Assembly: GCA_030280995.1 (NCBI GenBank)
Contig: JASXTE010000014.1
Coordinates: 28,552,150 to 28,616,149 of the forward strand
Reading direction: 5' to 3'
Length of the DNA: 64,000 nt
Source: Hemileia vastatrix
Lineage: Eukaryota > Basidiomycota > Pucciniomycetes > Pucciniales > Zaghouaniaceae
Shown here: positions 791-55,023 of the stretch, piece after piece
Numbering within the stretch: the first letter of the stretch is position 1
Layout: each line of letters begins with the position of its first letter
The notes under the pieces: model-generated
What the model saw: only the letters and a program-made list of their open reading frames with translations
The model's database searches: none
What the model was told of the DNA's origin: nothing
Program-made: the position numbers and the translations under genes

Positions 791-968
791 TTTATGAGAA
801 AGTCACATGACATACAATTTTGGATGCCATCCTTAAGTCTCTCTTCACTCTATGCTACTTAATTCTGGTGGTGAGCATAAAACATTTTTTCTATCTATAC
901 ACCCCATCTGCTCATTTGGTGGTGAATTCCCACTTCCCACTCATCACCTAAACCTTCTACCAACAATA

Positions 969-1450
969 ATGAAGAACCTCTCTACTAGGAAGCAAATTCA
1001 CTCAGCTATGAATTCACTCACTTTAGCTTTATCTTCTGACTCTGATTCTGACTCTGGTTTGGAAGACACTTTAGCTTATATGTCTTTTCTTTCCCAAAAG
1101 TGTTACATCTTCCCAAGGAGGCCAAATCTTTATCATGATCCCAGATATGATCTTTCCTCAATTCTTTAAATTTCTCATTTAAACTTCACACAACTTTTTC
1201 AAACTTCTCCTGATTCTTAAAAGAAACTTTCTCAACTCATCTCTGATCATCCTATCTTCCATTATAATTTCCATAACAAACAGTGTAGTTCTCCCTTTCA
1301 ACTTTCTGTTGCACTATGTCTTTTTGCTTCAAATGGAAATTTTTCTTCTGTAAGACTTTTAGATAGTCTCTTTACAATAGGATATAATACCATCATATTA
1401 TACACCAAGAGCTTTATGATTGCTATCCTTTCTCTCAAGTCACAAACACT
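969..1450 (+). pseudogene. Harbinger-like transposase, N-terminal half (broken)
   Basis: A likely start is the ATG at 969, which opens an acidic serine/aspartate stretch (SSDSDSDSGLED). The frame then meets two stops (about 1167 and 1216) but stays recognisable: a block about 1230-1440 reads like the helical region before the DDE domain, with SVALCLFASNGNFSSVRLL and IGYNTIILYTKSF matching the conserved order (small basic residue, SNGN, GxGTVxxYT) of DDE_4 transposases. The reading frame is cut at 1450 by the CACTA-type element and resumes at 11155. It would encode the DNA-binding and linker part of the transposase. An alternative upstream ATG exists at 852. Confidence 0.7.
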
Positions 1451-1501
1451 CACCACGGGAAATCTAGGGGTGAATTGCTAGCAATCCCCTCTCTTGAAAT
1501 T
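1451..1501 (+). repeat. Left terminal inverted repeat of the CACTA-type element
   Basis: Starts CACCACGGGAAATCT, then AGGGGTGAA and a small palindrome ATTGCTAGCAAT, then CCCCTCTCTTGAAAT. The CAC terminus and the embedded GCTAGC-centred palindrome are shared with the right end and, in layout, with the 261-bp MITEs at 42855 and 63226. Confidence 0.85.
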
Positions 1502-2029
1502 TAGAGTGTCCCTTAATTATTCCAGGTTTATGAATACTTTATAAACATAAGTAAATTAGAGTTAGATTTACATTTATTCTCAGATTGATTATAGACAGAA
1601 TATCAACTGATTCCAAATTATGCACAAGTTGATCCTCCAGAACTTGATTTTGGTCCTCTGATGAGAACAAATTGAGCACAAATTGATCTAACCTAAGCTT
1701 ATGCATATATAATAATTCAGGATACTTGCTCTATTAAATTTGATAATAATAAAAAATATTGATGAATTTATATAAAAAGAATTATTATGTAAGATATTAA
1801 ATTATAAATTTAGGCATCATAGGAGGGCACCTAATAGAACTTAATTATACTATGTGACACCTTAATACTGTATCACGCAGTTTGAAACATTTAAAACAAA
1901 ATGAGTCATAATGGGCAATGAAATTTCTTGGACAGACTCTTTCAAAATTAATACTGACCATAATACACAAGTATGAAACCTTGGCATCTATCCAATAAAA
2001 GATTTTCCTTCTGATAAATGGATTTTTCT
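1502..2029. other. Left subterminal region, no gene
   Basis: AT-rich sequence between the terminal repeat and the satellite. No reading frame or clear repeat is visible to me apart from scattered similarity to the short internal motifs of the element. Confidence 0.5.
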
Positions 2030-2240
2030 CAGTTACTACCTGCTAAAAGTGTCCTTCTGTGGTTTGTCTGACCTTCAGGGGGGTAATTTGGCCACATCAC
2101 ACTACTTCTATTTCCATGATTGACCAAAACATCATCCTCATTCCCATCTAAAGAGTTGATCTCATCTGACTGTGGCTGATCAAAGGGGTCCACCACAAGT
2201 TTAGCCAAAATTTTGGTGAACACTTTTTTGATGGATAGTG
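2030..2240 (-). repeat. Inverted, diverged copy of the satellite unit
   Basis: Read on the minus strand this segment follows the same order as the satellite units further right: the GTGAACAC-type palindrome arm, CAGTCAGATGAGATCAACTC, a GGAATGAGGATGA stretch, AGAAGTAGTGTGATGTGGCC and a second imperfect inverted repeat. It is the only unit in opposite orientation and marks the left boundary of the array. Confidence 0.65.
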
Positions 2241-2289
2241 ACTAACTGGTGCTTTCCGAAATTGTCCACCTCAAGTTAGGATAAACTTC

Positions 2290-3010
2290 AGGAGGATAAA
2301 TTTATTATGAATACCAAATTAACTGAAGAATACTTTTTCCCTAGCTACTCTGCATCATAAAAGTGTCCAACTGAGGTTTAGCCATAATTCAGGTAGACAC
2401 TTTTGGAAAGGCACAGTCTGATGGGTTTAATATCTATATATGGCAATACGTATCAGTTTTTTATCAACATGGAGCTAGAATTAATTTAATATGGCCAAAG
2501 TATCCACCTGAAGTTTGGCCAAAATACAGGTGGAAATTTTTATGAGGATTACTTGATGAAATGAAGAAGACTTGCAATTACTTTCCATCATAAAATTTTC
2601 AAACTTAAGTTTATCAAAAATTGTGGTGACACTTTTTCCAGATCCAGTCATATGGGATCAACTCTCTATATGGCAATGAGAATCAATTTTTAGTCAATCA
2701 TGGCATTAGAAGTAATTTTATATGGAAAAACTTTCCACCTGATTTTTGGCCAAAAATAAGTTGGAAATGTTTATGAGGAATACTAGATTAACTAAAGAAG
2801 ACTTGCACCCTACTACTGTCCATCATAAAAGTGTCCACCAGAAGAATTCTCAAACTTGTGGTTGACACCTTTGGCCTGGTCCAGCCATATGGGATCAATT
2901 CTGCATATGGAAATGAGGATTTAATTTGGTCAATCATGGTACTAGAAGTAATTTGATATAGATAAAGTGTCCAACTAAATATTGGAAAAAAATCAGTTGA
3001 AAACTTCATT
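2290..3010 (+). repeat. Three short (about 235-bp) degenerate satellite units
   Basis: Palindrome-like centres near 2381, 2614 and 2850 are spaced about 235 bp apart instead of 608. Each unit keeps only the part from the GAAGAAGACTTGCACCC motif through the second imperfect inverted repeat and then jumps straight to the next unit. The palindromes here are eroded. These look like older, internally shortened units at the edge of the array. Confidence 0.65.
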
Positions 3011-6000
3011 TAGTTTTTCAAAAAATCAAATTAAGTAAAATTTTATTCCTGATGATGCCCATTTTATCAAACACCTCTTCTGAGCCTTGAAAGTAGGCAT
3101 TTAGCTTGAATTTTGAATATCATATAAAATCCCTATTATTCAACCTATTTCTTTTTATCCCTTTTTTTCTTTTAGATATCAATTAATTTTATGTAAAACA
3201 AATCATTTTCATAATTTTTTACCTGTATTTAATAGAATTATTAAAGGTTTAACATCACCCTGTAAGCATTTGGCACATGTTTTTTTTCTATACTAGTAAA
3301 AATAATAATATACTGGTAACAAAAAATTGATCAAATGATAAAATATTAATAAAACAGAAAGATCAAATACCAGTGGATATGTTTAAAAAAAATACCAGTT
3401 GCACTGAAGAAGAGCTGCACCCTAGATACTCACCATCAAAAAAGTGTCCAGCACAAATTTGGCCGAACTTGTGCTGGACACTTTTGGTCAGTTGCAGTCA
3501 TATGAGATCAATTCTCGCTATGGCAATGAAAAAAAATTTTTGGATAAAAAACTTCACTAGAAGTAGTTTTACTTAGCCAAATTTTCTACCTAGATTTCAT
3601 CCAAACCACAGGTGCACAATTTTTTATCTTTGAAAAAAAGTCAATTTAGTACAATTTATCCCTGATGGCTCTCATTTGCTTCAACACCTCTACTGGCCTT
3701 TGATAGTAGGAATATTACTTGGATTTCTTTTTTCATATTTGATCCCTTTAACTTAATTTTTTATTCCTAATATTGCTTTTGGATATCAATTAATAATTTT
3801 TATAATAAATTATTTTCATATTTTTATACATTTATTTAATAATATTATAAATGGCATAAAATCACCTGGTATGCGTTTGGCACATGAGTTTTTTCTATAC
3901 TTATAAAATTAATAATATAATGGCGACCAAGAATTAATAAAATCATATTAATGAGTGAGGAAAAAATATAAAATACCAGTAGACATGTTTGTAAGAAATA
4001 CTAGGTGAACTGAAGAAAAATTCTACCCTAGCTACTCTACATTAAAAAAGTGTCCAGCACAAGTTCGGACGAACTTGTGCTGGACACTTATTGTCAGGTG
4101 CAGTCAGATGGGAGTAATTCTCTCTATGGAAATGAAGATAAATTTTTGATAAAAAATTACACTAGAAGTAGTTTGATATGGCAAAATTTTCATGCTGAAG
4201 TTTTGGTAAAGCTCAAGTGGATTTTTTTTTATTTTTACAAAAAAGAAAATTTAGTGCAAGTTTAGCCCTGATTGTTCTAATTTAATTCAACATCTCTTTT
4301 TTCTGTTTATGGCAGGAATTTAACTTGGATTTTAATTTTTATCTTTGATTTCTTTTATTTTACTTTATTCCTCTCATATTGCTTTTGGATAGAAGTTTAT
4401 TTTTTGTAAAATAAATCATTTTCATATTTTTTTACCTTTATTTAATAATATTATAAAAGGTGTAACATCACCCAGTATTCATTTGGCACACAAATTTTTG
4501 TTATACTGATAATATTAATAATATAATGGTGACAAAAAATTAATCAATTGATAAATATGAGTGAGGAACAAAGATTTAATAACAGTGGAAATGTTTATAA
4601 CAAATTTCAGATGATTAAAAATGACTTGCACCCTGGATACTCTTCATGATAAAAGTGTCCAGCACAGGTTTTGCCAAACTTGTGATGGAAACTTTTGGTT
4701 GCATGCCATCAGACGCAATCAATTCTTTTTATGGAAATGAGACTGAATTATCACTCCATCATTGCACTGAAAGTAGTTTTAAATAGACAAATTGTCCCCT
4801 GGAAGTTTTTCCAAACCTACAGTAGACAATTTTTTCCTTTGGTAAAAAGTAAATTTGATCCATGTTAATCTATGATGGTGCCCATTTTTTCTGAAGCCTC
4901 TACTGGCTCATGATAGCAGAAATTATACTTAATATCTTTATTTCATGTTTGATCTCTTTAATTTTAATCTTACCCTTTTATTTATCCTTTAGCTTTTAAA
5001 TATCAATTTTATTTTTGTAAAACTGATAACTTTCACATTTTTTTATATTTATTATATTATATTATTAAAGTTGTAAAATCATCCAGTGTACATTCATTAC
5101 ACATTTTTTTGCTATACTAAAAACATTAATAATATAATGGTGACTAAAAAATAATCAAATAATAAATATGGATGACACAGAAAGATCAAATACCCATAGA
5201 CATTTTTAAAATGAATATAAGATTAACTGAAGAAGACTTGCACCCTAGCTACTCTCCATCATAAAAGTGTCCAGCACAATTTCAGCTGAGCTTGTGCTGG
5301 ACACTTTTGGTTGCATGCAGTCAGATGGGATAAATTTACTCAATGGAAGTTAAAATGAATTTTTGCTCAATCATTGCACAAGAAGTAGCTTTATACTGCT
5401 ATACTATCCTCCTGATTTTTTGGAAAAAATCAGGTGGACACTTTTATTAATTTTAAAAAAAAGAAAAAATATTCCAAATCTAGAACTGGTGGTGCAAATT
5501 TGGTCTGAAAACTCAAATTATCTTTGATGGAAGAAATTTTATTTGAATGTTTAATTTCATATTTAATCACTTTTATTTTACTTTTTTATTCCTGTTTTTG
5601 CTTTCAAATATCAATTTATTTATTGTAAAACTAATAATTTTCATATTTTTTTTACTTTTATTTAATAAGATTATGAAAGATGTAGCATCTCCCAGTATGC
5701 ATTTGGCTTACAAATTTTTTCAATACTAATAACATTAATATTATAATGGTGAATAACAATGAATCAAATGATAAATATGAATGACACAGAAAGATCATAT
5801 ACAAGTGGATTTGTTTATAAGGAATACCTGATGAACTGAAGAAGAGCTGCACCCTAGATACTCACCATCATAAAAGTGTCCAGCATAAGTTCGGCCGAAC
5901 TTGTGCTGGACACTTTTGGTTGCAAGCAGTCAGATGGGATAAATTACTCTATGGAAATGAAAATGACATTTTGCTCAATCATTGCACAGTAAGTAGTTTG

Positions 6001-6839
6001 ATATTGCCAAAATGTCCTCCTGATGAATTTTCAAAACTCATCAGGACACTTTCTTTGGTTTAACAAAAAAGAAAATATAGTGCAAGTTTAGCCCTGGTGG
6101 TGCACATTTGATCTAACACCTCTACTTGTTATTGATAGTGGGAATTTTCCTTAGATTTTTTTTTCTTATTTTATCCCTTTTATTTTACTTTTTTATTGCT
6201 CATATTGCTTTGGATATCAATTTTTAATTTTTAAAATAAATAATTTTCATACTCTTATACCTTTATTTAATAATATATGATTAAAGGTGGAACACCACCT
6301 GGTATGCATTTTTCACACAAGTTATTACTATAGTAATAACGTTAACAATATAATGATGACAAAAAATTAATCAAACGGTAAATTTAAATGACACAGAAAG
6401 ATCAAATTCCAGTGGAAATGTTTATAAGAAATCCCTTTTGAGTTTAAGAAGATTTGCTGTATGCCTACTCTCAATTATAAAAGTGTCCAGCACAAGTTCG
6501 GCCAAATATTTTTTATTTTGTATTTGATCCCATTTATTTTCATTTTACTTTTCTATTACTCTTTTTAATTTTAAATATCAATTTATTTTTTTAAAAACTA
6601 AACATATTCATATTTTTTTAACTTTATATAATAATATTATTAAAGTTGTAACATCACCAATTTTGCATTTGGCATGCAGGTTTTTTCTATACTAGAAACA
6701 TTAATAATATATATGGTGACAAAAAATTAATTATAAGATAAATATGAATGATAAAAAAAAGTTAAAAACCCAATAGAAATGTGAAAAACAATAAACTGAT
6801 GTACTGAGAAACACTTCCACCCTAGCTACTCTCCATCAT

Positions 6840-6885
6840 AAAAGTGTCCAGCACAAGTTCGGCCGAACTTGTGCTGGACACTTTT
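6840..6885. repeat. Perfect 46-bp palindrome
   Basis: Arms of 23 bp with no loop, starting AAAAGTGTCCAGCACAAGTT and centred between 6862 and 6863 on TTCGGCCGAA. No mismatch between the arms. Confidence 0.95.
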
Positions 6886-7451
6886 GTTCAGGTGCAGTCA
6901 GATGGGATCAATTCTCTCTGTGAAAATTAAATTAAAAAAATGCTAAATAATTACATTAGAAGTAGTTTGGTATGGCTGAATTATCCACCTTGAGTTTTTC
7001 AAAACCTCAGGTGAAAAATTTTTTATCTTTAAAAAAAATTAAATTTTATCAAATTTAGCCCTGATGGCACCCATTTGTTTCAACACCTCCACTGGCTCTT
7101 GAAGGCAGGAATTTTTCTTGAATTTTTCTTTTTCATATTTGATCTCTTTTACTTTACTTTTTTATCACTCATGTTACATTTGGATATTAATTTATAATTT
7201 TGGAAAAGAAATCATTTTCATATTTTTTTAACATTTTTTAATAATATTATAAAAGGTGTAATATATAACATGGCATGCATTTGGCGCACAAGTTTTTTCT
7301 GTACTAATAAAATTAATAAAATTCTAATGACAAAAAATTAATCAGTTAATAAAATATGAATAACACAGAAAGATCAAATACCATTTGACATGTTTTAAAA
7401 AAAATAACAGTTGCACTGAAGAAGACCTGCACCCTAGCTACTCTCCATCAT

Positions 7452-7497
7452 AAAAGTGTCCAGCACAAGTTCGGCCGAACTTGTGCTGGACACTTTT
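7452..7497. repeat. Perfect 46-bp palindrome
   Basis: Identical to the palindrome at 6840-6885 and 612 bp further on. The flanking bases differ more between units than the palindrome does. Confidence 0.95.
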
Positions 7498-9832
7498 GGT
7501 CAGGTGCAGTCAGATGGGATCAATTCTCTCTATGGAAAGAAAAAAATTATTTGATAAGAAACTTCACTAGATGTAGTTTGATATAGCTGAATTATCCACC
7601 TAGAGTTCATCCAAACCACAGGTACACAATTTTTTATCTTTTAAAAACAATCAATTAAGTACAATTTATCCCTGATGGCTCTCATTTGCTTCAACATCTC
7701 TACTGGCCTTTGCTATTAGCAATAATACTTGGATTTCTTTTTTCATATTTGATCGCTTTAAATTAATTTTTTATTCCTCATATTGCTCTTGGATATCAAT
7801 TAATAAATTTTAAAATAAATTATTTTAATATTTTTATACATTTTTTTAATAATATTATAAAATGTGTAACATCACTCAGTATGCATTTGGCACACGATTT
7901 TTTGCTATACTTATATAATTAATAATATAATTAAGACAAAAAATTAATCAAACAATATGTATGAGTGAGGCACAAAGATAAAATACCAGTAGACATGTTT
8001 GTAAGAAATACCAGATGAACTGAAGAAAAATTCTACCCCAGCCGCTCTCAATCATAGAAGTGTCCAGCACAAGTTCGGCCGAACTTGTGCTGGACACTTT
8101 TGCTCATGTGCAGTCAGATGGGATCAATTCTCTGTATGGCAACAAAAAAATTTTTTTATCAAATTTCACAAGAAGTAGTTTGGTTTAGCTGAATCATCCA
8201 CCTGCTGTTCTGCCCAATATCAGGTGTATAATTTTTTATCTTTAAAGAAAAGGTCACTTATTACAATTAAGCCCTGATGGCTCCCATTTGCTTTAACACC
8301 TCTACTGGCTCTTGATAGCAGGAATTTTACCAGTATTTTTTTCATATTTTAACTCTTTGACTTTTATTTTACTCTTTTATTCCTCTTTTTACTTTTAAAT
8401 TTCAATTTAATTTTTGTAAAACTATTCCTTTCAATATTTATTTACATCTATTTTAAAAAATTATTGAAGGTATAACTTCACATGGTATGCATTTGGCACA
8501 CAAGTTTCTGCTATACTAATAACATTGATAATATAATGGTGATAAAATATTAATCAGATGATAAATATGAAAGATACAGACTGATCAAATACCAGTAGAC
8601 ATGTTTATAAGAAATACAAGATGAACGAACTGAAGAAAATTTCCACCCAAGCTACTCTCCATCATAAAAGTGTCCAGCACAAGTTTGGCCGAACTTGTGC
8701 TGGACACTTTTAGTCACGTGCAGTCAGATGGGATCAATTCTCTATATGGCAACAAAAAAACATTTTTTTATTAAACTTCACTACAAGCAGTTTTATTTAG
8801 CTGAATCATCCACCTGTTGTTCTTCCCAACCTCAGGTGTATAATTTTTTATCTTTAAAAAAAAGGTCACTTATTACAATTTAGCCCTGATGGCTCCCATT
8901 TTTTTCAACACTTCTACTGGCTCTTGAGAGCAAGAATTATACTAGTATTTTGTTTTTAATAATTGATCTCTTTGAGATTAATTTTACCTTTTTATCCCTC
9001 ATATTGCTTTTGTATATCAATTTATTTTTTGTAAAACAAATCATTTTCATATTTTTTTACCTTTATTTAATAATATTATAAAAGGTGTAACATCACCCGG
9101 TATGCATTTGGCACACGAGTTTTTGCTATACTTATAATATTAAAACATAATGGTGACAAAAAATCAATTAAATGATAAATATGAGTGAGGCACAAAGATC
9201 AAATACCAGTGGACATGTTTATAAGAAATACCAGATGAACTGAAGAAAAATTCCACCCTAGCTAACCTCCATCATAAAAGTGTCCAGCACAAGTTTGGCC
9301 AAACTTGTGCTGGACACTTTTGGTCACATGCAGTCTGATGTGATCAATTCTCTCTATTGCAATGAAGATGAATTTTTCTTCAATAATTGCACTAGAAGTT
9401 GTTTGATATGGCAAAATTGTCATCCTGAAGTTTTGGTAAAGCTCCAGTGGATTTTTTTTTATTTTTACAAAAAAGAAATTATAGTCCAAGTTTAGTGCCA
9501 CTGGTGGGCGTTCACCCCATCATGTCTACTTGCTCTTGATGGGAGGAATTTCACTTTAATTTTTTATTTCATATTTGATCCCTTTAATTTTACCTTTTTA
9601 TCCCTCATATTGCTTTTGGATATCAATTTATTTTTTGTAAAACAAATCATTTTCATATTTTTTTACCTTTATTTAATAATATTATAAAAGGTGTAACATC
9701 ACCCGGTATGCATTTGGCACACAAGTTTTTGCTATACTTATAATATTAATAACATAATGGTGACAAAAATCAATCAAATGATAAATATGAGTGAGGCACA
9801 AAGGTCAAATACCAATTAATCAATAGTTCTTT

Positions 9833-10419
9833 TTAATATTATAAATTTTTTGATTAAATAAAATGGTAATAATGAATTATATTTTTCATCCACAATTCCA
9901 CTCTAATGATTCCCACTGCACAAAAAGGGTTCACTTGGTCCTTTCTTTACTGCTTGTGCATATATTTTATTGCCCACAGTACTACAATTTTTTGTAGTGA
10001 TTATCCCACATCTGATTCAGGAATATTTTTAAACAATATAAGTTTTTTTTAAAAAAGACCTTATCATATCCAATATCCCACAAAAAATACAACCTGTTTT
10101 TGTATTAAAGCCCGTTAATTATTAAGAAATTGTTAAAATAATTAGATTAGACCCTGGCACAGCTAGATCCATACCAACCGACCTAAAGTCTTTTCAATAT
10201 TGAAAACAATTAAATAAAATTATGATATCATACTAAATTATGGGCACCAACCATAATTCAGCACTTCTCATTTGCTCTGCTACAAAATGAGTGCATGTAG
10301 CATTTTTCTAACGTCGGACTGTTTTTCTTCCTTCCCTCACACCTTTAGTCCAGAATGAAAATTTAGTATGAGTTTTGGTCAAAATGGTTTGCCAGTGTTA
10401 TCTGTATGCAATATGAATT
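9833..10419. other. Right flank of the satellite, no gene
   Basis: AT-rich unique-looking sequence inside the CACTA-type element. I see no gene, hairpin or tandem repeat here. Confidence 0.5.
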
Positions 10420-10479
10420 CATATTGCATATTTCTATTTATGCATAAAATATACTCGTTAAGCATCATTTTTTTTGCAT

Positions 10480-10765
10480 TTTTCAATCATTATGCATATT
10501 TATGCATATTCATATGCATATTCATTATAAAGATTTATATGCATATTAATATATTTTATTCATGTACATATATGCACCTTTTTTTTGCATATTCAATATG
10601 CATATTTTTAATGCATATTCAATATGCATATTTTTATGCATATTTAATATGCATATTTTTATGCATATTCAATATGCATATTTTTTATGCATAATCACTA
10701 TGCATATTTTTTATGCATTTTTTTATGCATTTTTTTTATGCATATTTATTCTTCATAGTCATTAT
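10480..10765. repeat. TATGCATA minisatellite
   Basis: Repeats of TATGCATATTCAATATGCAT-like units with runs of T between them; each unit contains self-complementary ATGCAT or TATGCATA cores. Unit length varies from about 18 to 36 bp. The two open frames across it (10368-10694 and 10562-10813) are products of the repeat and not genes. Confidence 0.8.
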
Positions 10766-10899
10766 GCATACACTTTGGATGGGCAATTCACATCAATTTT
10801 TAGCATGCAATAAGTATCCACCATGCAAATTCAAATGCATATGCATCTATATCATACACGCAACATATATTCAAGTTTAATATTTGAATATTAAGGTAT

Positions 10900-11099
10900 G
10901 CTAAGTGATGTTGTTCAACCTTTTGCCAAACCTGAGATTAACTGATGTTCAATGTGGTTCTTAAGCTCTGCTCAAGGAGGGATTGTTCTGGATTCAATCT
11001 GTGACAGTTTATTTTTTCAATGTTTTTTCATCAGATTTAAAAACATCTTTCTGACAGTTTCAGGATGGTTTCCCAACAGTTTCCTGACAAATTCCTAAT
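10900..11099. repeat. Right subterminal region with short direct repeats
   Basis: Several copies of a (T)GACAGTTTC or AACAGTTTC motif occur between 11000 and 11100, directly inside the right terminal repeat. The 261-bp MITEs have a comparable row of GAGTTCAGTCT repeats at the same relative place. In CACTA elements such subterminal repeats are binding sites for transposon proteins; that role is inferred here. Confidence 0.55.
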
Positions 11100-11151
11100 A
11101 GTTTCAAAAAGAGGGAACTGCTAGCAGTTCACCCCCAGATTTCCCGTGGTG
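11100..11151 (-). repeat. Right terminal inverted repeat of the CACTA-type element
   Basis: Read on the minus strand from 11151 it begins CACCACGGGAAATCTGGGGG, then TGAACTGCTAGCAGTTC and CCTCTTTTTGAAAC. It is the inverted partner of 1451-1501. Confidence 0.85.
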
Positions 11152-11860
11152 ACTTGCTTGGCCAATTCCACAACTGTGACTTGAATCCTCTAAAATAATT
11201 CAAGCTGAAGGTTTCTCTGGCTGTGCAGGTTTTGTTGATGGTACAAATATACCATTGAGCCAAAATCCTGCTTATAATGGAAACCATTGTTTTGATCACA
11301 AAAAAAGGTTTCTTCACAATTTTCTCAAATTTCTCATTTTTCATGAACTAGCTTTTTATCTTCTTTCTAGATACTCTATAGCTGTTCAAATTGTGTGTGA
11401 TTTCAATAAAAATCTTATTGCTTTTCATAGTGGCTGTCCCAGCTCATGTCATGACTCTTCTGTGTCCCACAGAATGAGGATCTCTCAAAATCCTGAAAAA
11501 TACTTTGACAAATCTCAGTACCTCCTTGAAGACTCAGCATATGCAAGTGGAAAATACATTATACCTGCTTTACAAGGTGCAACTTTAGAAAATGATCCAA
11601 AAACAATGTTTAATTATCACCTTGAAAAATCAAGAGTACAAATTTAACATGCTATTGAGATTCAAAAGGGAAGGTTTTCAAGTCTCTGTGAGCTTAGAAT
11701 CAAATTTCAAAAAAAAATGACCTCAAAACTGCAAATTATTGAATAATGACTTGTGTAATACTCCATAATATCCTAGCTGATTTGAAGGATTAGTGGTATG
11801 ATCTTTATGAAGAAGAAGATCCTGAACCTGCACCAGCTCTCCCCCCCCCTTTTAATTGCA
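11152..11860 (+). pseudogene. Harbinger-like transposase, DDE half (broken)
   Basis: The frame resumes right of the CACTA-type insertion and reads EGFSGCAGFVDGTNIPL, where VDGT carries the first catalytic aspartate, then AYNGNHCFDHKKR. A 63-bp intron (11308 GT to 11370 AG) follows; after splicing the frame continues YSIAVQIVCDFN, then GCPSSCHDSSV with the second aspartate, and LLEDSAYASGKYIIPAL, an A/DSAY block of DDE_4 proteins. HLEKSRVQI is followed by a stop where the family has a glutamate, the likely third acidic position. The frame goes on through GRFSSL to a C-terminal TCVILHNILADL, with two more stops and a small shift. Together with 969-1450 it gives one transposase gene, now inactive. 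Confidence 0.8.
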
Positions 11861-12289
11861 AAACTTAACTTCCACTGGGATATACTCTATCATTATGCCA
11901 ATCACACTCCATCATTTCTCAGCACAACTCCTTTGAACTTTTTAATATCTTTAGCGCTTATTTTCTTTCATCCTTCATATCCTTTTCCTCCTCTCCATTT
12001 GTATCTCTCAGAAAATATGTAGTTAAGTTTCCCAGCCTGATAAAATTAAATGTATTTTTCTAATGATATACATCCCTTTTGATAATAATAATTATTATTA
12101 TCAATTTCTAAACAACAATTATTATCCAATAATTTAAAAAAAAAATTCTATCATGTAGGTATTCTAACTTTTTTTTATCATTAATGTTTATATAATCAGA
12201 CATTAAAACATCTGGTATAACAATTTTTAATGTTTTAATAGATTTTGATAGTCTTTTACTGGTTTGAATTGAAGAACCTTGCCTTTCAA
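11861..12289. repeat. Spacer with a 22-bp perfect palindrome
   Basis: No gene is visible. The palindrome GATAATAATAATTATTATTATC (written here as GATAATAATAA and its complement) occupies 12081-12102. Confidence 0.6.
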
Positions 12290-13030
12290 ATTTACCAAAC
12301 TCTTTTACAGGAGTGGTTTGACAATATATTTTGTTAGGAGGAAAAATAATGACTCATAAACTATCACAATTCTCAAACTCCACCATATACTTGAGCTCTG
12401 GAAAGATAAAGTGGCCTCCATATTATCTAGGTATTCCTTCCTTTCAAGAATTTTCATCCAAAATTCCATCTAAAGCTTTTGGCCACCAAAAACCCAGGCT
12501 AAGATCACTGACATATAAATCATTGTGTGGGACATTGGAAAAGCCTCTATAATTCCAAGTTAAGTTACTTTCAAATATATTAAGATCATCATAGCAAGAA
12601 AGATCTAGTTCATTTGCCATTTTCAGAGATTTATTGTAGTACTTTGAAGCAAGATGCTTAAATAAAAAGGTTTATTAAAAAAATATGAATTCAAAAGCCC
12701 CCTTACTTGTTCATCATCTATTTTTAAATTTACCTAAAGACCTGGAGACTTAATAAGTATAATGAAGTAAATAAATAAATAAATTTTCTTACTGATTTCA
12801 AATATATGTTGAGTAGAAGCTCTTTCTTCAGCAGAATACATTTTACCCTCACCACCTCCTTTTTTATAAGCATAATTAGTCTTTATTTTATGCTTCAAAA
12901 TTCTTAGGCATTCACAACATTTCCTGGCATCTTCCAACATCCCCAAGCTCTTCAATTCTTCAAGTTTAAAGGACTTCACAATCACCAGATGAGTTTTAGG
13001 ATTAGAAGGTTGAATTACTGAAAGTTTTGG
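12290..13030 (-). pseudogene. TET/JBP-type 2-oxoglutarate/Fe(II) dioxygenase remnant
   Basis: On the minus strand, 12985-12790 reads LKSLGMLEDARKC and KKGGGEGKMYSAEERAS, resembling the region before the core in fungal TET/JBP-like proteins (GGGxKMYxxGWRAS). A GTAAG donor follows near 12790. From 12660 down the frame reads LNIFESNL, then GFSNVPHNDLYVSDLSLGFW, where H-N-D fits the iron-binding HxD motif, then WP, two stops, YGGHFIFPELKYMVEF and a distal stretch where the second iron-binding histidine appears to be lost (YCQTTPV). TET/JBP enzymes oxidise 5-methylcytosine or thymine in DNA. In basidiomycetes these genes are expanded and often travel with transposons, notably KDZ elements. Here the copy sits inside a Harbinger-like element, opposite in strand to the transposase. 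Confidence 0.6.
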
Positions 13031-13292
13031 TGAGACATGAGCTATGTGATAGGTTCCAGTGTTGTAAGAATCAGAGAATGTAGGGATAGGGCCATAAGAT
13101 GTAGCACCCTCTTAAAATGGATAGGTTTGGTACCAACCCTCTTCAAATCATCTCCCACCTCATTGCTCTAGGCCTTATCCTTCATTCTTAAATAAGAGTT
13201 CTTATTTGGGTGTCCATTTTCTCTTCTTGTCATATTAAATCTGCTTTAAATTAAATAAAAAAATAAAAAACCTATTCAAGATAGAGCTAATA

Positions 13293-13439
13293 AAACACAC
13301 TTAAAGCACTAAAAGACATCTTCCAACAATTATTTTTGTTTTTAGGGGTGTGGCTACAGCTAATAAACTCCACTTAAAGCCCCAACAGACATCTTCCAAT
13401 AAATATTGTTGTTAGTGTGGGGGCTACAACTAATAAATC
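13293..13439. repeat. Minisatellite, about 70-bp units, split by the LTR element
   Basis: Two units read CACTTAAAGC, AGACATCTTCCAA and GGCTACARCTAATAAA. A third unit is cut after AATAAATC by the LTR retrotransposon and resumes at 24608 as AAATCCCACTTAAAACCCC. Confidence 0.75.
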
Positions 13440-14904
13440 TGTCAGCCAGGCTTTACCAGGAGCCCAGTAAATGTTATTTTAATTTACTTCAACCAAAAGA
13501 GGGCATAAAAATATGCATATTATGTATATAAATTAATATTATATTGCATAATGAAATTATATAAGTATCTTATTAAATATAGGTAAAATAAGTATTATAT
13601 TAATTTTATTATTATATAAATTATATATACATTTAAATTAAGCATAATTAATTTTATATTCTATGAATTCTGGCATATTTTTATGTATTTAATAATTAAA
13701 AATTAATAATTAATTAATTATAAAAATATATTATAATTATAAGTATAAAATTGGCTTATAATGTAATTAAATTTATATATTAGGGGGTATCAAAGCTGAA
13801 AATTTGTAGTTATTTAAAAGGCATTTCAAAGTACAAAAAGAAACCCACAAACTTGACATTGATTCTCAGTAAAAAGGTGTTTTGGGGGCACAATATGGCA
13901 TATTTTAAAAAATAACCATGGTAGATTTTTTTGAAAAAAGAGGCATTTTGAAATGTAAGATTTCTAACTTTGATACCTCCTATTAAATAATACCTTTCAT
14001 ATCTTATTAAAAAGAAATATTGGGCACTTTTTTGACTCATAATTGTGTCATCAAAGTATTAGAAAATTTAAAAAGTTTTATTAAATAAATTATTAATGTT
14101 TTCTTCTAAAAATTAGTAATTTTATCAAAATAAATACTTTTTTTGACTTAAAATAATTATTACACTAATAAAAATAGTTAAAATAATTAATTACTCATGT
14201 TTTATACTAAATTAATTAGTTTCACTATTTTTATGTGTTAAAATAAGTTTATTTTTCATGTTTCACTTAAATTGGTTATAAATTAAAAGGTTATAAGACA
14301 TGTTTTAAGTTAAATTAGTTTTTTTTATGTGTCTCAAATATATTTAATTACTCACTAACTTTATGGTAACTGTTTGGGTTTAAATTGGTGGATATTTGGG
14401 CTCTAACTCATGTTTCTTAGTTAATTGTGTCATATTTTCCCCTTAAATTTAGTCAAATATGAGTTATTTGTTATTATGGTTTCATTACACTTTGTATATA
14501 CTTTATTGTGGCGCTTCACAGGGCCCCTTGCCTATATAAAGTCTTTGGGTAACCCCCTGTAGCCTCACCACTTATTACTTACTTTTTTTTTATTATCATT
14601 AATATTATTATTAATATAAAATGTTATATATACATTAGTTTTACTTATGGCGCTTTTTTGCCTCTGAAATATAGTATAAAATATATATATAAAGGTTGCT
14701 TTAAGATTATTCAATATTAGTATTTTTTACTTAAGCAGAGAGAATAAAAGACTTACTATATATCCTTCCCTAAATATCTCATTATAAGTTTTGTAACTCC
14801 CCAGACCAAGTTTTTTCTAATCATTGTTGTTACTGTTTTTTTTCCTTTCCTCTTTTCCTTCTTCTTCTTCTCTTTTCCTCCTTCTTCTAGACGACCAGCC
14901 CACA
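13440..14904 (+). repeat. Left LTR of the chromovirus
   Basis: Starts TGTCAGCCAGGC and ends GACCAGCCCACA, slightly eroded compared with GCTGACA at the end of the right LTR. Carries the small insertion at 13783-13980. Confidence 0.85.
13783..13980. mobile_element. 198-bp inverted-repeat element in the left LTR
   Basis: Starts GGGGGTATCAAAGC and ends AACTTTGATACCTCC, flanked by TATTA on both sides. The ends resemble those of the Harbinger-like family but differ right after GTATCAA. It occupies exactly the LTR position held by another element (21445-23236) in the right LTR. Confidence 0.75.
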
Positions 14905-34265: not shown

Positions 34266-37200
34266 ATGTATGTCGATGATGGAGATCATGCCAGTGATCA
34301 CGACTATCTAGAAGAAGAGGCAGAGGAGCCGATACCCCTCACGGGAGACGAAATCCCCGGTGCTTTGGAGAGCGCCAACAGTCGGGTATTTTCCACCAGA
34401 GTGAGTGGCAACCAAATAAACGAATGAAAATCATTCATTGTTCACGTCGATTCGTGGGCTTTCTGCGCTTGCATCTTGATATTCACCTCTTTAAATGGAG
34501 GGGGCTTCTGCATCATTATTTTATTTTATTATATTCTCTAAATTAGAATAAGAATTGCAAGTGCAATTATCTCAATTGTATCGAAACATTCTTTGGTTTC
34601 TCTTCTCTCAATTTAAGTACTTGCTATGAATATCGAACCGCCTTACTAACTCATCTCTTCTTCCAATCATTCCATGTCTTGTTCCATCTCATGGTCACCT
34701 TCATTACATCCCCTCGATCCCTTACCATCCTAGGAACTGTTTGAAAAAATGATCAAGTAAGTCCTTATCCAGCATCATGTTTCGGCGTGTATTTGCTCAA
34801 TTGATCTGATTTTATTTCTTGCATTTTTGTCCCTCGGTTTTAGAGGCAGAATTGATGTGGCTCCCCCGTACCAGCGTGACGTAGTCTGGCCCAAGTTGTC
34901 AGTACTTAATTTCCTCATTGTACTAGCTAAATCATTTTAAGCCTTATCTTTATCTTATCTATTACTTTGAATCTTTTTCAATAGATCCCAATCTACCCTC
35001 ATCGACTCTATTTTCAAAAAGTTTGTTGACTATTCCATCTATCTATTCATTATCAATCTGCAACAGTCTATTCACTGCTTGTTTTTCCATTGTGCAGCAA
35101 ATGGGTACCTACCCTACTCTTCAGTCAACGCATGGGTTTACCAGGTGCCCCTGAACAGTGGGTTTGCATGGATGGAAAACAGAGATTGACCTCCATTCGG
35201 CTGTATGTCACGTTGGCCATCTGCAGCTGTCTATGAGCTGTTTTCCATTAACAATGTTAAATTTTCTTGCTCCCTCTCTTATTTTCTTATTCCGATCTTT
35301 TAGATTTATTGAAGGTGAAATACCCTGGTATAGGTCAGCATTTATTTTTTTTCCTCTTTTTCTTTTTCTTTTTCTTTTTCTTTTTCTTTCTTTCTTTCTT
35401 TTATTTCTATTTCCTGATTTTTTGACTGGTTCTCACACATAAGAGCCGACGGCAAAGCGTGGTATTTTACTCAATCGAAACCTCCTAGTGGTACTCGCCG
35501 AATACTGTCTGATCACCTGAAAGACACTTTTCTTGATAGAGGCTTGAATACTGCTCTGTATTCTGGGCTCAACGAATTGCAAGAACGTGATATTTTCCGG
35601 TTGGTCCAGGAAGGGCGGCCATTATCTATTGGCGAAAAAATGCAGGCGGCAGCTGGGCCGTTAGTGTTTCTTTAAAGTAAAGGAACCCGCTCATTTTCTG
35701 ATGGTCAATACTTGTTTACTATATCATCTTATAGATGGAGCAGTTATTTAGAGATGATGGTCTCTAAGTATATGACTCGCAACCCCAAATCGCCTAATGG
35801 TTGGAGTGGCCGTTTCGCTAATCTAAAGCGGGGAGCCGTAAGGCAAGAATTTAATTTAATTTGATATTTTGACTAATCTTGCCATTTTTTTACTTCATAG
35901 GACTTTAAAACTATGGCTTCGATTGTTTTTTCAATTCAAGACTTTTATTCCTCGAAAAGACCTAATCTTTATACCACCATCCAGTTGCAAAAAGCCATCA
36001 AGTCTTTAGAGTGCAAACCTGTTCCAGATTCCCTTAAGCAGCAAGTAGGATGTATATTAGACCGGTTTATGGAACTTTCTCTTTTAGCAGCGCCTGGAAC
36101 AGTGCGTTCATCATCAGAACCTGTCACACCAGATGCATTTCTTGTCCCAATACAAGGATCTCGAATGACCACAATGTCTCCCGTTGAGCTTATTTGGATT
36201 CCTTATCTGATATATCGCCATAAAGCCTTGCCCAATGGAGAGTTACTAGAGATGATTGAAATGCTCAAGTTTGCTCGTAAGTTGGATGTTTTCCCAGGCT
36301 ATTGTGCTGTTATATGGCTTGTCAAATCTTCCACACTATACTAACACACACTTTCCCATTCATTCAATAGTTAGAAGTGAATTCTCAAAAGAAGTGAAGA
36401 ACAATAAAATGGTTGTGACATTTATTATTAATTGGATAGAAAACTTTAAACCTCAAGTACAACTCACTCATAAATATTTGCACTACACCGTGCCAGCAAA
36501 TGCTCCAAGCGACTGCTCATCACTTAGTGAACTGTCAGATAATGACAACCCGGCTCCAATGGCGTCTCGTCTTTCCAAAACTTCAAGCAAGCGGACTTTT
36601 CAAAGCACTACCTGCCGGCAATCGGATATTAATAAAAAAACTAAAGTTGCGGAAGGTTCAAAACCAAGCTCAACTTCACAAGCTACGGAGAGCGTCCGCA
36701 TCAAGCCTGATCCTGATATTCCAGTGAATGTGCAGACATCCTCTCATCCTTTGCTAGCCACTGGAGTCGGGCTTAACGGCCAACTTGGTTCTGCTTCATC
36801 GTGTCCTACCAATTCATCATCACCTCAGATGCCTGCGAGGCGCTTGTCTGATCATCTGATTGCCCCAAGACCGACCTCAATGGTACCTATGACGCGTGCA
36901 CCATTTAATTCGAATTACAATCCTTCCAATCAGTCAAGTGGTGTGGCAGGTTCTAGTATGCGCCAAGCAGCAGGATCAAATGCTTATAACCAAGTATCCT
37001 ATGACCCTCGAACAATGTATCGCCAAAACATCCCTGGCCAGTCCCAACCAGGCCTATCTGCCCCACTTTCTGCTAATGCTCGTCTCTCATCTGCAGCATC
37101 TTCAAATGCATCTTATTATGTCTCTAATAATTTTCATGGGGGTCCGAGATCAACAGCACCTGTTTATTCACATGTTGCTGATATTCGCAGCTCTCCTTCC

Positions 37201-37458
37201 GTAATGTCATCTCCTTATCAAGGTTATGGGAACTTGGGTTCATCGCCTGGTCTTTCTAGTGTTATGGCTAAAATTAAATTTACCAAAAAGTCAACCACAG
37301 TTGATGGTGGTAGCGCGAGTAATTCTGGTACGGCCAATACTAATACTATTACTAACACCAATACTAATAATTATAATTATAATTATAATCATAATCACAA
37401 TCATGGTAGCTCACGAAGCAGTTATTCAACCACCATCAAGCAAGAATGCTCCAGCTAG
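34266..37458 (+). CDS. DUF262 (GmrSD N-terminal / ParB-like) domain protein, ten exons
   Basis: Exons: 34266-34400, 34734-34756, 34844-34894, 34985-35020, 35098-35202, 35304-35333, 35444-35665, 35735-35837, 35901-36276, 36371-37458. All introns are GT-AG and phases agree, giving 722 residues; starting at 34191 would add 25. After an acidic N-terminus (HDYLEEEAEEP) come RIDVAPPYQRDVVWPK and TLIDSIFKNKWVP, typical of DUF262, then MDGKQRLTSIRLF, the (D/E)GQQR-type motif that in GmrS-like proteins binds and hydrolyses nucleotides. About residues 130-360 are helical and family-like (WSGRFANLKRGADFKTM). The last half is low-complexity, rich in Ser, Asn and Pro, with basic patches (FTKKSTT) and an Asn-Thr, Asn-Tyr, Asn-His run near the end. 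No endonuclease domain is visible after DUF262. The cellular role in fungi is unknown. It is the only intact-looking gene here; a 23-bp exon 2 is notable. Confidence 0.88.
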
Positions 37459-42429: not shown

Positions 42430-43820
42430 TTGAGATCTTACTCTGTAAGCTCCATTCCATCTGTCAGAAAACCTTTTTTCCCACTGACTCTCAAAACTTC
42501 TATTATGAAACAACACCAAACATCCAGGCTTTAAGGGATTCCTGAGTCTATGAGCATACTTCTTGTCTCAGTATCTGACTGATTGATTTCTAATCTTCCT
42601 CATTCTAAAGTATTCCTTCTCTTGACATTCTTCTTTAGATTCCAACTGTTGCATCCTAGCACAGAGCTAATCTTCTGTTGAGTGCACCTCATCCCAATCA
42701 ATTCCAAGATATGAAACAGCTTCCAGGTCCACTGGTAAAACTGCCTTCTTCTCAAACATTAACTCATAAGGAGAATAGCCAGTGTCCTTTTCAAAGTGAC
42801 CCTATCAGCAAACAAAACCAAAGGTAAATAATGCCTCCACTTTTCAGAACCATCCACCACACAATATGGGGGGCGGACTTGCTAGCAAGTCCGCAACCTT
42901 GGACCCAAACTCACCATAGATTGAACACACATTGAGCTATTGATAAAGGAACCATACAATCAGGGATGAACACCACTCAGCAGAACAGTTTTAGGTGGGT
43001 GTTCAAGTAGAGTTCAGTATGGGTTCAGTCTGAGTTCAGTCTGAGTTCCATCTGAGTTCCATCTGAGTTCAGGTTGAGGACTTGCTAGCAAGTCCACCCC
43101 CTATATTGCGTAGTGATCTCCACACATTTTCACAAATGCATTCTTGATAACTTGATGACCTTTTTCTACCATGACTTTAGCTTCAGGACAATAAGGCGTA
43201 GCCACTCTAACTTTAGAACCAATGATAGCCACATCTTCTTTGAATTCAGCTCCAAACTCTGGCCTACCATCAACAGTCACCAATTTCATTAACCCATATC
43301 TATAAAACCATTCCTTTTTCAAAAACTTGGCCACACTTTTAGCAGTCAAATTAACCAGAGGCACAGCCTCAACCCATCCAGACAAATCATCTCTGTAAAC
43401 AATCAAGTATTTATACCTGCCCTCTTTAATATGGACAGCATCCAGACTGACTCTTCCAAAGACAGTTGATTCACCAGTAGCATGGCCAACCTCTTTATGT
43501 TTTAAGTGACTTCTTCTTTGAAATTATTCACAAGATTGGACCCAACACTGCACAGCCAACTTCATACCAGGCCACCAAAATAAGTCTGCTACTCTTCTAT
43601 TAGTCTCCCCAAAGCCTCTATGACCAAGGTCTTCATGCAAAGACATCAACACCACCTCTTGACCCTTCTTCTGAGTCACCACAACTTGATAATTTAGAGG
43701 CCTCTTCCTCATCAACCTTCTCCCTGACACATAAAATCCAGGACTCTTCTTCTTGATTGCTAACCAAGTATTATCATCACAACTATCTGGCCTCTCCAAG
43801 GTCAACAGATATTCCACCAT
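42430..43820 (-). pseudogene. Element X integrase, split by a MITE
   Basis: The upstream piece 43820-43524 carries LMSLHEDLGHRGFGETNRRV and a PGMK.AVQCWVQSCE stretch, the histidine/cysteine zinc region. The piece 43440-43116 holds VSLDAVHIKEGRYKYLIVYR, VTVDGRPEFG (second aspartate) and VMVEKGHQVIKNA (glutamate). The 261-bp MITE lies after KMCGD. Downstream of it the frame resumes at 42851 with GSEKWRHYLPLVLFADR, then a one-base loss shifts the frame near TGYSPYELM. The lesions besides the MITE mean that X was already decaying or has decayed since. Confidence 0.75.
42855..43115. mobile_element. 261-bp CACTA-type MITE, copy A
   Basis: Left end CACCACACAATATGGGGGG, right end (minus strand) CACTACGCAATATAGGGGG, each followed by the palindrome GGACTTGCTAGCAAGTCC. 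ATC is duplicated at 42852-42854 and 43116-43118. Removing the element and one ATC rejoins the integrase frame. Five GAGTTC-type direct repeats lie just inside the right end. Copy B at 63226 has the same length in the opposite orientation. Confidence 0.92.
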
Positions 43821-50616: not shown

Positions 50617-51279
50617 TTATTTTGATTTAAATTTTTTCAAGAGATTTTGAAGATCAGAAATTTCATTTTCTGGAATCCACTGGTCATATTCACTTGATTT
50701 ATTTTTAAATCTTAATAGATACTCAACTCCCTTTTCTTTTGTAAGGTGTCTCTTTTTAAGTATCTTTTCAATTTCTGCCTTTTCAACTATTTCTTCAGGT
50801 TGCTGTTTATGCCTTCCTGATCTTCTTGGAAATAGAGCAGTATCATTAGAATGGTATGGTTTTATAAGAGATATAGGAAATACTGGATGTTTTCTATCAT
50901 ATGGTGCATATAGAATAACCTCAACAGCATTGTTACCAACCATCTTTTTCACTACAAATGGTCCAATGAATGGATCCTTCAATTTAATATTACAATTTAA
51001 ATTGAAATTTAGTGTATAAATAAGGACTTTATCACCCTCTTTGAGCATTTGTTCTTTATAGGCTTTATCCCATCTTTTCTTCTCATACTCAAATGCCTTA
51101 TCTATACATTCTTGAGCATGTTTTCTGCATAATTCCTGCATCTGAAGAAAAGACTTAGTACCTGGATGGATATCCAATCTAGTTAATTTATTAAGACTTA
51201 TAGAAGGGGGGTACATAACCCAACCATAACTCAAATGGCTTTTTTCCAGTGACAGAATGTACTGTACTATTGTATGCAA
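50617..51279 (-). pseudogene. Y integrase C-terminus and chromodomain
   Basis: An open frame, shifted by one relative to the integrase core which it overlaps (51191-51279). It holds DKVLIYTLNFN and LKDPFIGPFVVKKMVGNNAV, the integrase C-terminal fold, then PVFPISLIKPYHSND and finally VEYLLRFKNKSSEYDQWIPE, the chromodomain. Ends at 50617 near the polypurine tract. Confidence 0.8.
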
Positions 51280-51823
51280 ATTCTAAACCTGGGATAAGGG
51301 TTACCCAATCATGCATGAATTTGTCATTTTCTTTAAATTTAAGACCAAAAGCACAATATCTTCTTATCATATCTTCTAAAGTTTTTATCATTCTTTCTGC
51401 TAGCCCATCAGCTGATGGATGGTGTGCTGTAGAAAGTTTTAATTGACACCCTGAAACATCCATAAGTGATGTCCAGAACTCAGAAGTAAATTTAGGATCT
51501 TTGTCTGAGACTATTGCTTTGGGGAAACCTGCTATATTTAACATTTGTGTCCACCATAAAAAAGCTAAGTCCTTTGCAGAAACCTCTTTGTGAGTAGGAG
51601 TAAATTTACACATTTTTGTAAATCTATCTACAACTACCCAGCAGGAGTTATAACTCTTATGCCCTGCTATTGGAAAACCTTTTACAAAGTCCATGTTAAC
51701 TATTTCCCATGGAGCTTTGGGTTGCTCAATTTGCTGTAATAAACCAGCTCTTTTGCCTGTTAATCTTTTAGATTTTTGACAAGAATCACATGTCTCAACA
51801 TATTTTTGAGCATCATCAGACAT
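51191..51823 (-). pseudogene. Y integrase core
   Basis: TCDSCQKSK gives the two zinc-binding cysteines; the matching histidines lie in the preceding frame (CHDDILAGHFD). Catalytic residues are visible: D45 in NMDFVKG, D107 in VSDKDPKF and E143 in LAERMIKTLEDM. The conserved HDWVTLIPGLEFAYNS follows. A frameshift near 51200 separates it from the C-terminal part. Confidence 0.85.
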
Positions 51824-51868
51824 GTTAATCCACCAAGCTGTGTTTTTTACTCTGGTTAATGTTTTATG

Positions 51869-52435
51869 TTAGTCAAAATGACCTGCTAATATATCATCAT
51901 GACATATACTTAACATTAACTCCTTCATTGAAGGGGGAATTACAATTACATTACTTAATTTTTTCCTGTCATATATAAAACCATCCTCAATGGAAAATTT
52001 TCCTTTTTCTAATGCTTCTTTATACTTATTTGGTAATGTTTTTATTAAAACATTCATTGAAGCATTAGATGGATCATTTAATATTGTAGTGAGTTTACTT
52101 AAGTCAGGATCTGAATTATAATTATCAAGAATTGATTGCATAAATTCATCCTCAAGATCTACAATATAAATTCCATAAATGTTAATAATCTCTGACTCAG
52201 GAACATAAGCAGGATTATCATCATTATTAGGCAGATGTACTCTAGATAACAGATCTACATTAGAGTGCAAGGTTCCTGCTCTATGTGTAATAGTCATCCG
52301 TCCTCTGTATTCTTGTACAGCTAATTGCCATCTAAACATGTGTCTATTAGGAGTTTTCATGTTTAAGAGTGACTTAACTGCACTACAGTCAGTTATTAAC
52401 TCAAATTTTTGGTCTTCAAGGTAATAATGTAGCTT
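51869..52435 (-). pseudogene. Y RNase H end and integrase zinc-region linker
   Basis: Reads KLHYYLEDQKFELITDCSAV, then MKTPNRHMFRWQLAVQEYRG, the end of RNase H, LLSRVHLPNNDDNPAYVPES and CHDDILAGHFD. It is separated from the reverse transcriptase frame by a stop at 52436 and from the integrase core by a stop at 51869. Confidence 0.8.
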
Positions 52436-53437
52436 CTAAAGAGCCCATACTACTTCCAAACATTCAAATTGAGTAGTACCATATTTCAATTCACTACTTC
52501 TCAGAGTACATGAAATATAGCAGGTTACTACTTCTGACATTTTTCCTTCAATAAGTTGTTTTTGATGCAAAGCAGCACCCAGACCAATAAAACTTGCATC
52601 TGTATATAATACAAAAGGTAATTGGAAATCACGTAATCTCAAGATAGGAGCTGTCATCAAACATTCTTTCAACTTATCAAAATCCTGTTGTCTTTCATTA
52701 TTCCAAATGAAAGCTTCTGATTTCTTTATCAGTGTGGTCAATGGTGCAGCAATTAATTGGTAGTTTTTTATATATTGTCTATAATAACCACACATGCCAA
52801 GAAAAGATTGTACATCCTTTACATTTTGAGGAATGCCAATATTCTTTATTGCAGCAACCTTATTTTGGTCTACACATATTTGTAAGCCAGATACAATATG
52901 ACCAAGCACTTTTAAAGATTCAAACCCAAATTTAAATTTTTTCAATGCAAGGGTCATTTTTATTTCATCCATTTTCTGAAATACCTTTTTTAAATGGATT
53001 AAGTGTTCATCATATGTTTTAGAGAACACTATGATGTCATCAATGTATACCATTAACCATCCTTCAATCATTTCATCATGGAATGTTATATCCATTAACT
53101 TCTGAAATACTGATGGAGCATTTTTTGGTCCAAATGGCATCCTGAAATATTTATAAATTCCCATATGTGTTGTAATCAACAAAAAGTTCTGTGAATTCTT
53201 TTCAACAGGAATTTGATGGTACCCTTTATTTTCATCTAGGCAACTTATATACTTAGCACCTTTAAGGGTAGCATATATAGAGGCAATCTTTGGCAAGGGA
53301 TAAATATCATCTACTGTAAATGTATTTAATGCTCTATAATCACCGCACAGTCTTGCTTTATCTTGTTCATAAGAAATCAGCACTGGTGATATTACACAAT
53401 ATTTTGGAGTAGTTTCAACCATCTCAAGAATGTTCAT
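52436..53437 (-). pseudogene. Y reverse transcriptase and RNase H
   Basis: 333 open codons. RLCGDYRALNTFTVDDIYPL is the template-grip block; SCLDENKGYHQ holds the first catalytic aspartate (68); FRMPFGPKNAPSVFQ and YIDDIIVFSK (131-134) are the remaining palm motifs. LGHIVSGLQ and SFLGMCGYYRQYIKNY lead into RNase H, whose first aspartate is in LYTDASFIGLGAAL (280). All reverse transcriptase residues I can check are present. The frame ends WAL then a stop. Confidence 0.88.
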
Positions 53438-53440
53438 TTT

Positions 53441-53806: not shown

Positions 53807-53970
53807 GCCAATTTAAAATTATTATTAGCAGGGTCTAATTTCACACCAAACTTAGTCAGAATATAATTTCCAATGATAAAACAGTTACTACAGTTAGTAT
53901 TGTCCATTACTACAAAGTCACAAGTTACTCTTACATAACCATGTTGATGTTTAAAGAAAACAGCAGCTTT

Positions 53971-54783: not shown

Positions 54784-55023
54784 CGGATTGTACCTAGTTT
54801 TCTCATAAAGTCTCTGCTAAGTAAGCCTGAATTTAGAACCTCTAAATTTTTTTTCAATAAGTTTTTTCCATTCAACCCAAGAGTAATCTTTACCCTCACT
54901 CAATACAGCTTCAAACCATAATAAAGCAACATCCTTAAATAAAGAAATTAATTTTGATGTTATTTCTTCATCTGGTAACTTATATGAGAACTTTAAATTG
55001 TCAATTCTTTGTATAAAATGTTT

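Follow-up and report, generated by a model that had tools for sequence, protein, structure and literature searches.

The window analysed here, a 64,000-nucleotide stretch of the Hemileia vastatrix genome (assembly GCA_030280995.1, contig JASXTE010000014.1, positions 28,552,150 to 28,616,149), contains a 9,701-bp element that has no transposase gene and consists mostly of a satellite array, each monomer of which bears a 46-bp palindrome. The element probably belongs to a young, high-copy, non-autonomous CACTA (EnSpm) transposon family, normally about 10.4-10.6 kb long, in which the palindromes would serve as functional cis-sites. A more specific proposal, tentative and quite possible, is that a long, regular ladder of about 12 CpG-bearing 46-bp palindromes, which selection would keep against rapid CpG decay, is needed for transposition or for escape from silencing.

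Both ends of the element fit the pattern CACCACGGGAAATCTRGGGGTGAA with no mismatches, the left end in its A form and the right end in its G form. The terminal inverted repeats (TIRs) are identical over the outermost 15 bp and match at 42 of 50 positions over 50 bp. At up to 3 mismatches, no further match to CACCACGGGAAATCTRGGGGTGAA was found in the window beyond these two ends, and none in 100 shuffles. When the element and one copy of the flanking ACT were excised, the flanks joined in a single reading frame, the downstream half of which is a DDE_Tnp_4 domain (PF13359; 39.2 bits, cut-off 24.8). This rejoined reading aligned to a Harbinger-type paralogue nested in another copy of the element, L016 (42% over 237 columns, E 2e-60), and none of the 6 gap positions of the alignment fell at the junction. 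Host gene and paralogue alike are decayed and contain stops. Judged by this alignment, the paralogue is a paralogous empty site for the insertion in the window, and the window insertion and the nested insertion in L016 show that Harbinger-type and CACTA-type transposons insert into each other. The preliminary description of this DNA had placed a 9.7-kb element with inverted ends and ACT on both sides at 1451 to 11151, which the positions of the TIRs and of the target-site duplication confirm. Its statement that the flanks rejoin in frame is borne out by the gapless junction, and the empty site for which it had proposed a search was found as a paralogous one.

CpG was absent from the 1,450 bp preceding the element. 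Directly after it, at 11152-14000, the observed/expected ratio was 0.016; within the element and beyond position 14000 it was about 0.2.

The family was searched for in the H. vastatrix assembly (747.6 Mb in 791 contigs). A 301-bp left-end query gave 40 scored places, the best of 2,750 candidates. Apart from the window itself, the other 39 were 97-100% identical to the query, and the similarity started no further out than 14 bases beyond the TIR and no further in than its first base. The 24-bp end had 1,599 exact matches (781 + 818) and 5,015 matches with up to 3 mismatches (2,516 + 2,499), while a control pattern gave 0 in both cases. At two ends per element, these counts suggest a family of about 2,500 copies. 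Among the first 100 exact ends listed, 17 adjacent pairs were convergent within 40 kb, and 16 of these combined one A-form with one G-form end. Eight of the 17 were 9.9-11.1 kb long, and the modal length of the pairs was 10.4-10.6 kb. On C2 there were 14 such pairs versus 1.4 expected from random placement (maximum 7 in 2,000 trials). Should the copy estimate be right, with two of the 5,015 ends per element and an element length of about 10.4 kb, the family would account for very roughly 26 Mb, or about 3.5% of the 748-Mb genome.

We examined 20 copies as 10-kb stretches; they were drawn from the 40 best-scoring places, which biases them to young copies. They match the window interior, save for nested insertions, deletions and L025, which represents a divergent subfamily. 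The satellite interior is present in all 20, and, barring nested insertions and deletions, the order and spacing of the array are constant. Other sequences account for the copies in which the similarity stops early: L012, L015, L017 and L018 contain frames that were judged by eye to be retroelement-like, L016 the Harbinger-type insertion and L010 another CACTA-like element. The base preceding the left end was A or T in 20 of 20 copies, in a genome that is about two-thirds A+T. The window and 19 of the copies differ from their consensus by 0.4-1.7% in the left 2.25 kb (L009 over 1.64 kb; L025 excluded). This low divergence indicates that the spread of these copies is recent, and the copies examined, biased to young ones as they are, lie within a few percent of one another. 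The preliminary description had recognized the element as a transposon and proposed a search for further copies with these ends, which were found in the numbers given above; it had overlooked the youth and abundance of the family.

In the same left 2.25 kb, G-to-T and C-to-A substitutions (157) stood against 136 G-to-A and C-to-T substitutions, so that the spectrum of young substitutions is unlike that of pure CpG decay or repeat-induced point mutation. L025 is a shorter form, with a left end 95.8% like the consensus. The short form is about 8.0-8.1 kb long, and the convergent pairs C2:22387051-22395041 and 22900244-22908253 are near such a length; from length alone, our guess is that these two pairs are the same short form as L025.

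The TIRs begin with CAC, as is typical of CACTA elements, and the target-site duplication is 3 bp long, both in the window (ACT) and in all three of the 20 copies that show both ends: ACT in a copy of 6,400 bp, TAT in one of 9,821 bp and CCT in one of 8,103 bp. Two other classes were considered and rejected. Miniature inverted-repeat transposable elements (MITEs) are non-coding and under about 0.6 kb in size, whereas this element is 9.7 kb and the modal pair 10.4-10.6 kb long. PIF/Harbinger elements have the target-site duplication TWA, which is not what was found here, and the ends of this family are CAC..GTG. It is thus highly improbable that the element belongs to another superfamily with 3-bp duplications, such as PIF/Harbinger, and is CACTA-like by resemblance only, even though canonical Harbinger elements also make three-base duplications (PMC12730594).

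No transposase frame was found inside the element, where the longest stop-to-stop frame (111 amino acids) lies in an AT-rich minisatellite. The array of about 607-bp monomers (3065-9816) fills about 70% of the element, and dyads and satellite together (2045-9816) fill about 80%. These results bear out the preliminary description, which had reported an element mostly of satellite without a transposase frame; it had seen the satellite and missed the palindrome within the monomers. Each monomer bears the 46-bp palindrome AAAAGTGTCCAGCACAAGTTCGGCCGAACTTGTGCTGGACACTTTT or a near variant. The consensus of 18 copies contains 12 palindromes, plus divergent dyads of like layout on the left; about 254 bp of monomer 6 that most other copies examined contain are missing from the window copy (at 6506/6507). 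In the left subterminal stretch, the five TTGAT motifs compare with 1.2 expected (P 0.007). At C2:9102153-9102657, palindrome copies are about 236 bp apart instead of 607 bp, which suggests a compact form of the satellite resembling the 231-bp unit of the left block.

The palindrome is the best conserved part of the monomer. Among the monomers of the window, its divergence was 0.075 versus 0.249 elsewhere, the lowest of 595 intervals of 46 bases. For the consensus test we used 17 of the 20 copies together with the window, some only as far as a nested insertion; left out were L009 (large deletion), L017 (early insertion) and the divergent L025. Among the 12 consensus monomers, the divergence of the palindrome was 0.040 versus 0.248 elsewhere, again the lowest (of 585 intervals), and none of 20,000 base-matched resamples reached so low a value. 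To see if slow mutation could account for this, we took advantage of singletons, that is, changes private to single copies, which are mostly post-insertion; cells with a local identity below 85% were dropped from the substitution counts. Singletons per cell were 0.00975 in the palindrome and 0.00984 in the rest. The post-insertion rates per cell in the palindrome and in the rest were 0.171 and 0.150 for CpG, 0.0186 and 0.0210 for other G/C, and 0.0094 and 0.0091 for A/T. The rate at CpG sites is thus about seven to nine times that at other G/C, and still 40 of 552 consensus positions in the palindromes are retained CpG positions versus 44 of 6,968 elsewhere. Such a comparison of post-insertion mutation with the divergence between monomers distinguishes selected from drifting sites. 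The simplest reading would be that selection acts on the copies that continue transposing, and by this comparison the palindrome looks like a selected cis-element.

Palindromes are subject to correction and recombination, and this counts for a different explanation, in which the palindromes stay alike not through functional selection but through hairpin-driven gene conversion or template switching during replication, either between monomers or within them. The variants in the left block retain much dyad symmetry although their inner arm differs from the main type, which arm-to-arm correction would give as well. However, post-insertion changes in the palindrome match those in the rest, class for class, and in ten-base bins the divergence climbs from 0.02-0.07 within the palindrome to 0.16 and 0.28 in the bins lying across its two edges. 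We therefore regard conversion as rather unlikely. The array could also be transcribed, its hairpins yielding small RNAs that act on the host defence, a competing element or the family itself. Indeed, the fold of one 612-nucleotide monomer, in which the palindrome forms a single long stem, was better than those of all 20 shuffled versions (z -4.0), but such folding is expected of any 46-bp palindrome. Rfam and tRNA scans of the window gave no matches, and we consider a small-RNA role quite improbable.

Finally, the satellite might be carried along as passive cargo after a CACTA element had captured the array, as reported in Chenopodium. Capture of satellite arrays by CACTA elements has been published (PMC8978399). 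Against this stand the conserved order and spacing of the array among the copies and the constraint on the palindrome. In addition, the palindrome occurs about 25,000 times genome-wide, which, set against the count of ends, gives about ten palindromes per element on the assumption that all of them lie inside elements. Passive capture is thus unlikely.

In the reading favoured here, the CAC ends would be cut by a tnp2-type transposase acting in trans, and insertion with a 3-bp stagger would follow the known CACTA route. The interior palindromes would most simply be recognized by a dimeric DNA-binding protein belonging to the element family. Plant CACTA elements have a second protein that recognizes repeated motifs in their subterminal regions, and 12 palindromes are described at one end of Tgmt* from soybean (PMC2613891). 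The palindromes of the rust element may be an expanded version of such TnpA-type subterminal repeats, multiplied along with the satellite. The satellite would then be working machinery, an expanded and possibly methylation-sensitive protein-binding platform, and not cargo.

Candidates for the transposase exist in the genome. Transposase_21 (PF02992) was over the Pfam cut-off in 150 of 150 scored places out of 2,198 candidates. An open stretch of 767 amino acids elsewhere in the genome scored 56 bits with PF02992 (cut-off 28.6), and long open frames are present in two tnp2 families. Together with the ends, the target-site duplications and the empty site, this genomic tnp2 supports the earlier view of a large non-autonomous CACTA element. 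An autonomous partner with the same ends, for which a search had also been proposed, was not found by a weak test, in which profile hits of Plavaka (PF18759) and Transposase_21 at 13 sites on C2 and C19 were compared by eye with the 100 listed of the 1,599 exact ends (one tnp2 site on C11 was left out). When eight tnp2 frames were compared as proteins with the window and the 20 copies at E up to 1e-4, no match was found (for the eighth frame, none among the matches listed), and no recognizable element end was found in the 1.5 kb beyond one transposase gene. In that 1.5-kb stretch a sequence was read by eye as a long terminal repeat, since its start is found again at insertion junctions.

Several observations weigh against the palindromes as cis-sites of a CACTA element mobilized in trans. 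None of the 13 tnp2/Plavaka-type sites on C2 and C19 was enclosed by a convergent pair of the listed exact ends, and an inward-facing exact end lay within 30 kb at 2 of the 13, which does not exceed chance (expected 0.70, P 0.15). Classical subterminal repeats are weak, with no TTGAT motifs on the right side. In the CACTA elements described in PMC8978399 and PMC2613891, binding repeats are found no more than several hundred bp from the ends, while here they extend through the interior, and the palindrome as a protein-binding site, drawn by analogy, remains putative. The conservation is also not confined to the palindrome, as the bases 53-82 to the right of its left edge are fairly conserved (0.11-0.18). 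Moreover, when all substitutions are counted, the palindrome has more of them (0.0244 versus 0.0131 per cell), because it is CpG-rich (40 CpG among 552 positions).

Parts of this picture are known from other systems. CAC..GTG ends and 3-bp duplications are known from EnSpm families of rusts (Kojima 2025, PMC12730594); the families of Puccinia striiformis and its relatives share these features with the element described here and come from the same fungal order. In that account they encode a transposase, and three of them also a TET/JBP dioxygenase, whereas the element in the window is gene-less and mostly satellite. The soybean Tgmt* (20.5 kb) is likewise a large CACTA element with a 3-bp duplication, and its asymmetric repeats form 2 + 12 palindromes, described as TNPA-like protein binding domains. 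Unlike the window element, it encodes its own transposase, and its repeats are restricted to the terminal 159 bp and 732 bp, whereas here one 46-bp palindrome per about 607 bp runs across the interior (PMC2613891). A CACTA element of Chenopodium quinoa with complete ends and a captured 171-bp satellite array also carries a satellite inside; there the array is an addition to a Transposase_21-bearing element, and here it makes up the greater part of a high-copy non-autonomous family (PMC8978399). CACTA elements with CAC ends and 3-bp duplications in rusts and CACTA elements holding satellites in plants were thus already known. What is new here is a palindrome whose post-insertion mutation matches that of the surrounding sequence, class for class, and which yet differs by 4% between old monomers, versus 25% for the rest. 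A high-copy fungal CACTA family consisting mainly of palindromic satellite was not found in the literature, which we searched by titles and abstract openings. The family ties satellite DNA to DNA transposons in a fungus and offers a testable reason for the persistence of the satellite. Helentrons belong to the rolling-circle class and, unlike the window element, are not known to have TIRs or a target-site duplication. Even so, non-autonomous Helentron elements with satellite-like repeats in oysters are similar in that a mobile element disperses tandem repeats (PMC7492417).

Table 1 Features of the CACTA-type element, its insertion site and its short relatives in the window
Feature	Position	Strand	Remarks
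Upstream part of interrupted Harbinger-type gene	837..1450	+	decayed
Target-site duplication ACT, left copy	1448..1450	.	adjoins left end
Non-autonomous CACTA-type element, whole	1451..11151	+	9,701 bp; TIRs, target-site duplication, empty-site paralogue, thousands of ends elsewhere
Left TIR, A form	1451..1500	+	inner palindrome ATTGCTAGCAAT
Left subterminal stretch	1585..1745	+	five TTGAT motifs; homologous to subterminal region of CACTA-like family F3
Left block of divergent dyads	2045..3003	+	AAAAGTGTCC...GGACACTTTT layout
231-bp unit within left dyad block	2433-3003		first unit inverted
Satellite array, about 607 bp	3065..9816	+	
46-bp palindrome, monomer 1	3440..3485	.	two mismatched pairs
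46-bp palindrome, monomer 2	4046..4091	.	
46-bp palindrome, monomer 3	4651..4696	.	degenerate
46-bp palindrome, monomer 4	5263..5308	.	
46-bp palindrome, monomer 5	5872..5917	.	
Half palindrome	6479..6502	.	at deletion in monomer 6
46-bp palindrome	6840..6885	.	perfect
46-bp palindrome	7452..7497	.	perfect
46-bp palindrome	8056..8101	.	one mismatched pair
46-bp palindrome	8666..8711	.	one mismatched pair
46-bp palindrome	9276..9321	.	perfect; both CpG changed to TpG/CpA
Right arm	9817..11101	+	
ATGCATATT minisatellite in right arm	10549-10770		
Right TIR, G form	11102..11151	-	inner palindrome AACTGCTAGCAGTT
Target-site duplication ACT, right copy	11152..11154	.	adjoins right end
Downstream part of interrupted Harbinger-type gene	11155..11647	+	DDE_Tnp_4
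CACTA-like MITE, 261 bp	42855-43115		target-site duplication ATC
CACTA-like MITE, 261 bp	63226-63486		opposite orientation to the preceding MITE; target-site duplication TAT

The window also contains two short relatives of the large element, which the preliminary description had overlooked while finding the large one. Both 261-bp elements have ends like CACTACGCAATATAGGGGGTGGACTTGCTAGCAAGTCC, laid out as in the large element with CAC, a G run and a TTGCTAGCAA-type palindrome, and contain the minisatellite GAGTTCAGTCT. A third CACTA-like family, F3, with the end CACAGAAAAAATGGGGGGGTATTGCTAGC, is nested in L010 (copy at C2:13352664-13362663) and has five TTGATC motifs within its first 300 bp. 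The first 260 bp of F3 aligned to the left end of the large element with a score of 53, and still with 46 when the first 60 bp were removed (shuffle maximum 29 in each case; 200 shuffles for the latter). Its end occurs 2,163 times genome-wide at up to 3 mismatches (control 0). F3 may be a closer lead to the mobilizer, but inward-facing exact F3 ends lay within 30 kb at 2 of 24 sites (C2, C19 and the listed part of C26), which again does not exceed chance (expected 0.74, P 0.17).

Elsewhere in the window, a Gypsy frame gave 622 hits, and among the 120 listed, all that carry an organism name come from the rust Austropuccinia psidii. An open frame of 400 amino acids (36256-37458, plus strand) matches the EED insertion domain, but below the cut-off (21.1 versus 27 bits), and a broken-up Gypsy chromovirus (50617-54816, minus strand) contains protease, reverse transcriptase/RNase H, integrase and chromodomain frames.

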